Source: an uncultured Roseateles sp.
GTDB lineage: Bacteria > Pseudomonadota > Gammaproteobacteria > Burkholderiales > Burkholderiaceae_C
Direction: 5' to 3'
Assembly: GCF_913777145.1 (NCBI RefSeq)
Contig: NZ_CAJYPS010000023.1
Location: forward strand, 286,912-350,911
Length of the DNA: 64,000 nucleotides
Shown here: positions 62,771-64,000 of the stretch, in pieces
How the letters are laid out: each line of letters starts with the position of its first letter
How positions within the stretch are numbered: position 1 is the stretch's first letter
The notes under the pieces: model-generated
The model's database searches: none
What the model was told of the DNA's origin: nothing
Seen by the model: the letters and a program-made list of their open reading frames with translations, nothing else
Translations under genes and position numbers: made by a program

Positions 62771-62829
62771 GCGGCGTTCTACAATCGCCCCTCCTACCCA
62801 CTCACAAGAGCGAGAAAGGCACCCTGGTT

Positions 62830-62868
62830 ATGACACCGCGAACTACGACCCCGTTCTGCAAGGAATAG
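62830..62868 (+). CDS. Threonine-rich leader peptide MTPRTTTPFCKE (putative thrS attenuator peptide)
   Basis: ATG ACA CCG CGA ACT ACG ACC CCG TTC TGC AAG GAA TAG; SD-like AAAGG 10 nt upstream; 4 Thr in 12 codons, three consecutive. Confidence 0.75.
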   Translation: MTPRTTTPFCKE

Positions 62869-62909
62869 TCGGCCGCGGCTCGTCTCGCCTGCCTTTTGGG
62901 CAACACATC

Positions 62910-62936
62910 AAGCGCGGCAAGTGGCCGCGCTTTTTT
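62910..62936 (+). terminator. Intrinsic terminator (attenuator) upstream of thrS
   Basis: AAGCGCGGC-AAGTG-GCCGCGCTT perfect 9-bp stem ending in a TTTTTT run. Confidence 0.92.
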
Positions 62937-62961
62937 GTTTCTGCCTCCGTTGGAGCACCCC

Positions 62962-64000
62962 ATGATCTCGATTCAACTCCCCGACGGCTCGCGCCGTGAA
63001 TTCCCGGCGCCGCTGACGGTCGGCGACGTGGCCGCCAGCATTGGCGCCGGCCTGGCCAAGGCCGCGCTGGGCGGCAAGGTCAACGGCCAGCTGGTCGACC
63101 TGAGCCACCCCATCACGCAGGACGTGCAACTCGCCATCGTCACCGACAAGGATGCCGACGGCCTGGAGCTGATCCGCCACTCCACCGCCCACCTGCTGGC
63201 CTATGCGGTGAAGGAGCTGTTCCCCGAGGCCCAGGTCACGATTGGCCCGGTGATCGACAACGGCTTCTATTACGACTTCTCGTACAAGCGCCCCTTCACG
63301 CCCGAGGACCTGGCCAAGATCGAGGCCAAGATGACCGAACTCGCCAAGAAGGACGAGAAGGTCGAGCGCCGCGTATTGCCGCGCGACGAGGCCGTGGCCT
63401 ATTTCAAGAGCCTGGGCGAGGACTACAAGGCCGAGATCATCGGCTCCATCCCGGCCGGTGAAGAGGTGTCGCTGTACCGCGAGGGCAAGTTCGAGGACCT
63501 GTGCCGCGGCCCCCACGTGCCGTCCACCGGCAAGCTCAAGCACTTCAAGCTGATGAAGGTGGCCGGCGCCTACTGGCGCGGCGACAGCAAGAACGAGATG
63601 CTGCAGCGCATCTACGGCACGGCCTGGGCCAGCAAGGACGACCTGCAGAAGTACCTGCTGATGCTGGAGGAGGCCGAGAAGCGCGACCACCGCAAGCTGG
63701 GCAAGGATCTGGACCTCTTCCACATCGACGAGCACGCGCCCGGCGTGGTGTTCTGGCACCCCAAGGGCTGGACGGTCTGGCAGGAGGTGGAGCAGTACAT
63801 GCGCCGCGTCTACCGCGAGAACGGCTACCTGGAGGTCAAGGGCCCGCAGATCCTGGACAAGGGCCTGTGGGAGAAGACCGGCCACTGGGACAAGTACCGC
63901 GAGAACATGTTCGTGACCGAGTCGGAGAAGCGCGACTACGCGCTCAAGCCGATGAACTGCCCCGGCCACATCCTGATCTTCAAGCAGGGCGTGAAGAGCT
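62962..64000 (+). CDS. thrS: Threonine--tRNA ligase (3' truncated by window)
   Basis: Translates as [47 protein letters not shown]...; TGS domain and later '[14 protein letters not shown]'; open to the window end. Confidence 0.97.

Follow-up and report, generated by a model that had tools for sequence, protein, structure and literature searches.

E. coli thrS is subject to translational autorepression, and thrS in the Firmicutes is controlled by a T-box. Leader-peptide attenuation of synthetase genes is also established, as for E. coli pheM-pheST, and Lopatovskaya, Seliverstov, and Lyubetsky reportedly surveyed the attenuation of aminoacyl-tRNA operons in 2010. In Streptomyces, trpS and leuS are controlled by leader-peptide attenuation (PMC1262725), and in Streptomyces lividans a leader with two Thr codons, thrL, was proposed before thrS from RNA-seq (PMC8079986). 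An earlier note on the DNA analyzed here proposed a peptide attenuator in front of thrS, a kind not known to its author for this gene in beta-proteobacteria. The S. lividans proposal is a precedent from another phylum; for thrS of beta-proteobacteria, the literature searched yielded no such leader, although the 2010 survey may contain one.

Near the end of the window (the whole 64,000-nucleotide stretch of DNA that we analyzed), the forward strand carries, in order, a -10 box, a Shine-Dalgarno sequence, a leader ORF, the segment GGCCGCGGCT, a terminator, and thrS, and every coordinate in the earlier note matches the sequence letter for letter. The -10 box, TACAAT (62780–62785), belongs to the predicted leader promoter; relatives have a T(A/C)NAAT-like box, such as TAGAAT, in the equivalent position, and a consensus scan of the window recognized no -35 box upstream of it. 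The Shine-Dalgarno sequence GAGAAAGG (62812–62819) precedes the 12-codon ORF MTPRTTTPFCKE (62830–62868), which runs from an ATG at 62830 to a TAG at 62866–62868. It contains the three consecutive Thr codons noted before, but its Thr total is four, with all four kinds of codon (ACA, ACT, ACG, and ACC) used. Just past the stop lies GGCCGCGGCT (62871–62880), followed by an intrinsic terminator with its U tract (62910–62936). The hairpin (62910–62932) is a perfect 9-bp stem with the loop AAGTG, as claimed, and is followed by T4; the T6 of the earlier claim is reached only by including the final two bases of the stem. The threonyl-tRNA synthetase gene, thrS (62962–64000, ATG at 62962), has TGS and tRNA_SAD domains and is cut by the end of the window and contig. 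Only 25 nt, with no promoter-like site, separate the U tract from thrS, and with no room there for a promoter, transcripts from an upstream promoter must cross the terminator to reach the gene. Elsewhere in the window, a patatin-like gene (Pfam PF01734, 61685–62770) ends 10 nt 5' of the leader's -10 box, and two tandem tRNA-Asn(GTT) genes lie at 606–838.

Of the 347 ATG ORFs of 8–30 codons in the window, counting both strands, only the leader ORF is Thr-rich. With Thr at its local frequency of 3.2%, at least four Thr in 11 codons would arise with a probability of 0.0003. To obtain a family sample that did not depend on the motif, we located thrS in relatives by its protein and read the upstream DNA. 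All 35 family genomes with complete upstream DNA had both the leader ORF and the terminator. Beyond an invariant start, MTPRT, the peptide is variable (MTPRTTTTTFTGN, MTPRTTTTFTGT, MTPRTTFPFTGS, MTPRTTSEMFTGR, and others) and has 3–8 Thr; the Thr run is lost in one family genome (L033, MTPRTFLLITQAL). Homologous leaders are Thr-rich overall, but the run after MTPRT varies and has been lost in some lineages. Past residue 5, Thr accounts for 26% of leader codons versus 3.2% in window genes; the search pattern biases its share at codon 6 but not those at codons 7 and 8 (56% and 27%).

Leaders are mostly 10–23 codons long, and their reading frame is kept: in 57 of 62 distinct leaders, a multiple of three nucleotides separates the ATG from a conserved TAGTCN at the stop, compared with frames spread 27:25:23 in a control interval, from TAGTCN to the terminator. 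Within the genus, whole ACC codons have been gained and lost in frame. By sequence comparison, frame retention and Thr richness show that translation of the leader probably matters, and the Thr codons and kept frame are those expected of the short ORF of a leader-peptide attenuator. In four leaders from Duganella, Rugamonas, Janthinobacterium, and related bacteria (L115, L129, L157, and L196), a point change from CGA to TGA has moved the stop two codons upstream. Despite the shift, these leaders retain the former stop segment, GACGCTAGTCG, suggesting that it has a role at the RNA level.

Conservation of the leader extends to more than 150 sequenced relatives. Allowing at most one mismatch, a 17-nt pattern matched in 46 of 399 genomes of the Burkholderiales, from eight families, compared with five matches for the reversed control. 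At least 119 genome records match a 21-nt stretch of the leader exactly, including Variovorax paradoxus, Delftia acidovorans, Comamonas testosteroni, Cupriavidus necator, Janthinobacterium lividum, Massilia, and Herbaspirillum. In all 117 records with enough sequence, thrS starts 123–323 nt downstream of the leader start, and the motif is therefore specific to thrS. We found no plasmid copies of the leader. Outside the Burkholderiales, a 16-nt pattern so narrow that it misses the window itself gave four matches in 143 genomes of the class, below its reversed-pattern control; given that narrowness, a diverged leader may still occur elsewhere.

A looser pattern revealed lineages in which Thr2 and Thr5 alone are kept, as in MTPRTFPSLI and MTPRTCFFLR. 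When 54 thrS upstream regions representing 50 other families of the order were scanned, a Thr-rich ATG ORF was present in 12, against 1.3% in shuffles; one of the 12 is a false match inside tRNA-Val, leaving 11 plausible cases. The codon pair CGA-AC(T/G) recurs in six diverged leaders: MQRTSTKTITYLG, MQLNRTTTTS, MTLRTCTKH, MFKRTTTTRISR, MSFRTRMTTDA, and MAVRTTTTHP. This pair, CGA followed by ACT or ACG (Arg-Thr), is common to otherwise unrelated leaders upstream of thrS (L041, positions 1–800; L047; L049; L216; L226; and L237), hinting at common descent or at a role for the slow CGA codon.

Many Burkholderiales families have a tRNA-Val(GAC) gene immediately 5' of thrS, with or without the leader (L038–L053 and L212–L238), and the tRNA-Val promoter may drive thrS in such families. 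Because many of them have tRNA-Val(GAC) and a terminator adjoining thrS with no Thr ORF, one could suppose that the hairpin is simply an ordinary terminator for the gene before it (tRNA-Val in other families), that the Thr ORF is there by chance, and that thrS is transcribed from its own promoter. We consider this very improbable, as the -10 box is situated past the upstream gene but ahead of the terminator, the 25 nt that follow the latter have no promoter-like site, and the leader ORF is conserved in both sequence and frame together with thrS. A chance ORF is itself ruled out by this conservation (35 of 35 family genomes and the link to thrS) and by the frame.

The switch envisaged in the earlier note depends on alternative RNA pairings. 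Its 1:2 pairing, between CCGCG (62836–62840) and CGCGG (62874–62878), is present but longer than described, with CGAC/GUCG adding pairs, such that region 1 (CCGCG plus CGAC, 62836–62849) pairs with region 2 (GUCGGCCGCGGCU, 62868–62880) in the minimum-energy fold of ribosome-free RNA. The terminator's 5' arm (62910–62918) constitutes region 3, and its CGCGGC can pair with GCCGCG of region 2 to form a predicted antiterminator. Region 2 includes TAGTCGGCCGCG, which is invariant in the clade, but its form differs between clades, being GUCGGCCGCGG in that of the window and GUUCGCG in the Comamonas/Acidovorax clade; the latter is the exact complement of CGCGAAC in the invariant core. Being invariant, region 1 can show no covariation with region 2. 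A terminator follows the leader in 171 of 172 homologous leaders, as in the window, placing it between the ORF and the structural gene. Its arms vary by species yet pair (AAGCGCGGC/GCCGCGCTT, AAGCGCGGA/TCCGCGCTT, AAACGCGGC/GCCGCGTTT, and AAAGCACGG/CCGTGCTTT), although this 3:4 covariation is partly circular, pairing itself having been the criterion for finding terminators. One relative (L013, 1336–1480) has two nested terminators before thrS, in which the usual GCGCGGC...GCCGCGC hairpin encloses GCGGCCCAAGGCCGC plus U8.

Duplex energies per sequence differed only modestly from those of shuffles, and we therefore used ribosome-mask and swapped-partner tests. For the former, we masked the ribosome and cut the RNA after region 3, an equilibrium calculation with an assumed footprint, applied to relatives that are not independent. 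In the window, the predicted capture of region 3 was 0.16 without a ribosome, 0.72 when one was stalled at Thr5, and 0.61 when one occupied the stop; the contrast between stall and stop is thus small, whereas that with no ribosome is large. Across 84 representatives, stalling at Thr5 raised capture by 0.156, versus 0.008 when the segment between the core and terminator was shuffled (p=4e-6), and the difference between stall and stop was 0.163 versus 0.054 (p=9e-4). Without a ribosome, capture was lower than the shuffled level (p=1e-6). Region 2 was also better suited to its own terminator arm than to the arms of other species (p=0.007). These in silico results support the mutually exclusive 2:3 and 3:4 pairings originally proposed, with an antiterminator that appears to depend on ribosome position. 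The check suggested at the outset, a survey of thrS upstream regions across the Burkholderiales, upholds the Thr-rich, frame-conserving ORF as well as the terminator and the exclusive pairings.

The leader's Shine-Dalgarno sequence is complementary to a pyrimidine stretch past region 2. In the window, GAAAGGCA can pair with UGCCUUUU (62890–62897); the equivalents are GAGAAGGG with CUUUUCUC in a Rhizobacter genome and GCGAGAAAGG with UCUUUUUCGU in Oxalobacteraceae. In free RNA, the Shine-Dalgarno sequence was predicted to be paired downstream to an extent of 0.56, versus 0.43 in shuffles (p=6e-5), and native partners beat swapped ones (p=0.0002). This pairing likely lowers leader translation in ribosome-free RNA and keeps termination the default. 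Along with the longer 1:2 helix and the RNA-level invariance of the MTPRT segment, it was absent from the earlier note.

That invariance is a puzzling feature of the locus, as the synonymous sites of MTPRT never change. The 19-nt core GGTTATGACACCGCGAACT (62826–62844), which includes the start codon, is identical in 35 of 35 family genomes, at synonymous positions and at the four bases before the ATG alike, whereas 36% of thrS third positions in these genomes are non-modal. Two rare Thr codons, ACA and ACT (5% and 6% of Thr codons), are retained unchanged throughout, as is the GGTT before the ATG. Base pairing of region 1 explains CCGCGAAC in the core, but not the remainder, and the constancy of GGTT and the synonymous sites is not explained by attenuation alone. 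Such constraint past coding needs, GGTT included, could mean that ThrRS or another protein binds the core, causing autorepression or antitermination as at the E. coli thrS operator, with the Thr ORF secondary. A hairpin resembling the tRNA-Thr anticodon arm, the mimic found in the E. coli-type operator, occurs in only 1 of 171 leaders, compared with 2 of 171 shuffled ones, and the frame and Thr richness point to translation, with pairing that responds to ribosome position; we therefore think a primarily protein-bound element highly unlikely.

The same invariance and rare codons would also suit a terminated leader RNA, or a peptide, whose main action is in trans on other genes, much as the Sinorhizobium trp leader is said to act. 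However, a search of the window's own genome that allowed up to three mismatches found neither another copy of the core nor its complement, and a function in trans would supplement attenuation rather than replace it. That such a function is the principal one strikes us as scarcely credible. There is a somewhat better, though still small, chance that the leader is an attenuator with two functions conserved across the order, in which the core, beyond stalling and pairing with region 2, acts in trans or is recognized by a factor as leader RNA or MTPRT peptide. In any case, the core offers a short, invariant, and easily mutated element for testing.

Our evidence for ribosome-mediated transcription attenuation is wholly computational, and its comparative part strongly supports this reading; from it we infer promoter activity, translation, stalling, termination, and a response to threonine. 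We consider it very likely that such an attenuator controls thrS. Transcription would start shortly past the -10 box at 62780, with the leader ORF translated behind RNA polymerase. When Thr-tRNA is plentiful, a ribosome reaching the stop at 62866–62868 would cover region 2, allowing the terminator at 62910–62936 to form and transcription to stop 25 nt before thrS. When charged tRNA-Thr is scarce, the ribosome would instead stall at Thr codon 2 or at codons 5–7, covering region 1, and region 2 would be free to pair with the 5' arm of the terminator, letting polymerase enter thrS. With no ribosome, 1:2 would form and termination would be the default, probably reinforced by pairing between the Shine-Dalgarno sequence and 62890–62897. 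The attenuator probably reaches the whole operon, which in Variovorax is thrS-infC-rpmI-rplT-pheS-pheT-ihfA. Placed first in an operon that encodes ThrRS, IF3, L35, L20, and PheRS, it may allow threonine supply to set the level of translation factors.

Among described systems, thrL of S. lividans likewise is a Thr leader proposed in front of thrS, but it belongs to another phylum, has a different peptide (MKRVRPFLETTPGFVPAR) with two Thr, is leaderless, and has no clear terminator and no sequence similarity (PMC8079986). The pheM-pheST system shares a leader peptide rich in the cognate amino acid and a terminator/antiterminator before a synthetase gene, and pheST even lies in the thrS operon; it differs in amino acid and gene, is located inside the operon rather than at its head, and is unrelated in sequence. 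The thrL leader of E. coli thrABC (Rfam Thr_leader) has a Thr-rich peptide and the same 1:2, 2:3, and 3:4 logic, but governs threonine biosynthesis and also senses Ile. Rfam covariance models (Thr_leader, T-box, other attenuators, and riboswitches) gave no match above the gathering score at the leader described here. The E. coli thrS operator and the Firmicutes T-box control the same gene through ThrRS or tRNA-Thr supply but have no leader peptide, and the present leader has neither a T-box match nor an anticodon-arm mimic. The switch is thus of a classical type, in a gene and a bacterial order for which we found no earlier description, and its RNA-level invariance is unusual. If the reading is true, it adds, across a large order with Cupriavidus, Variovorax, Delftia, Acidovorax, Janthinobacterium, and Massilia among its members, a third mode of bacterial thrS control to the autorepression of E. 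coli and the T-box of the Firmicutes.
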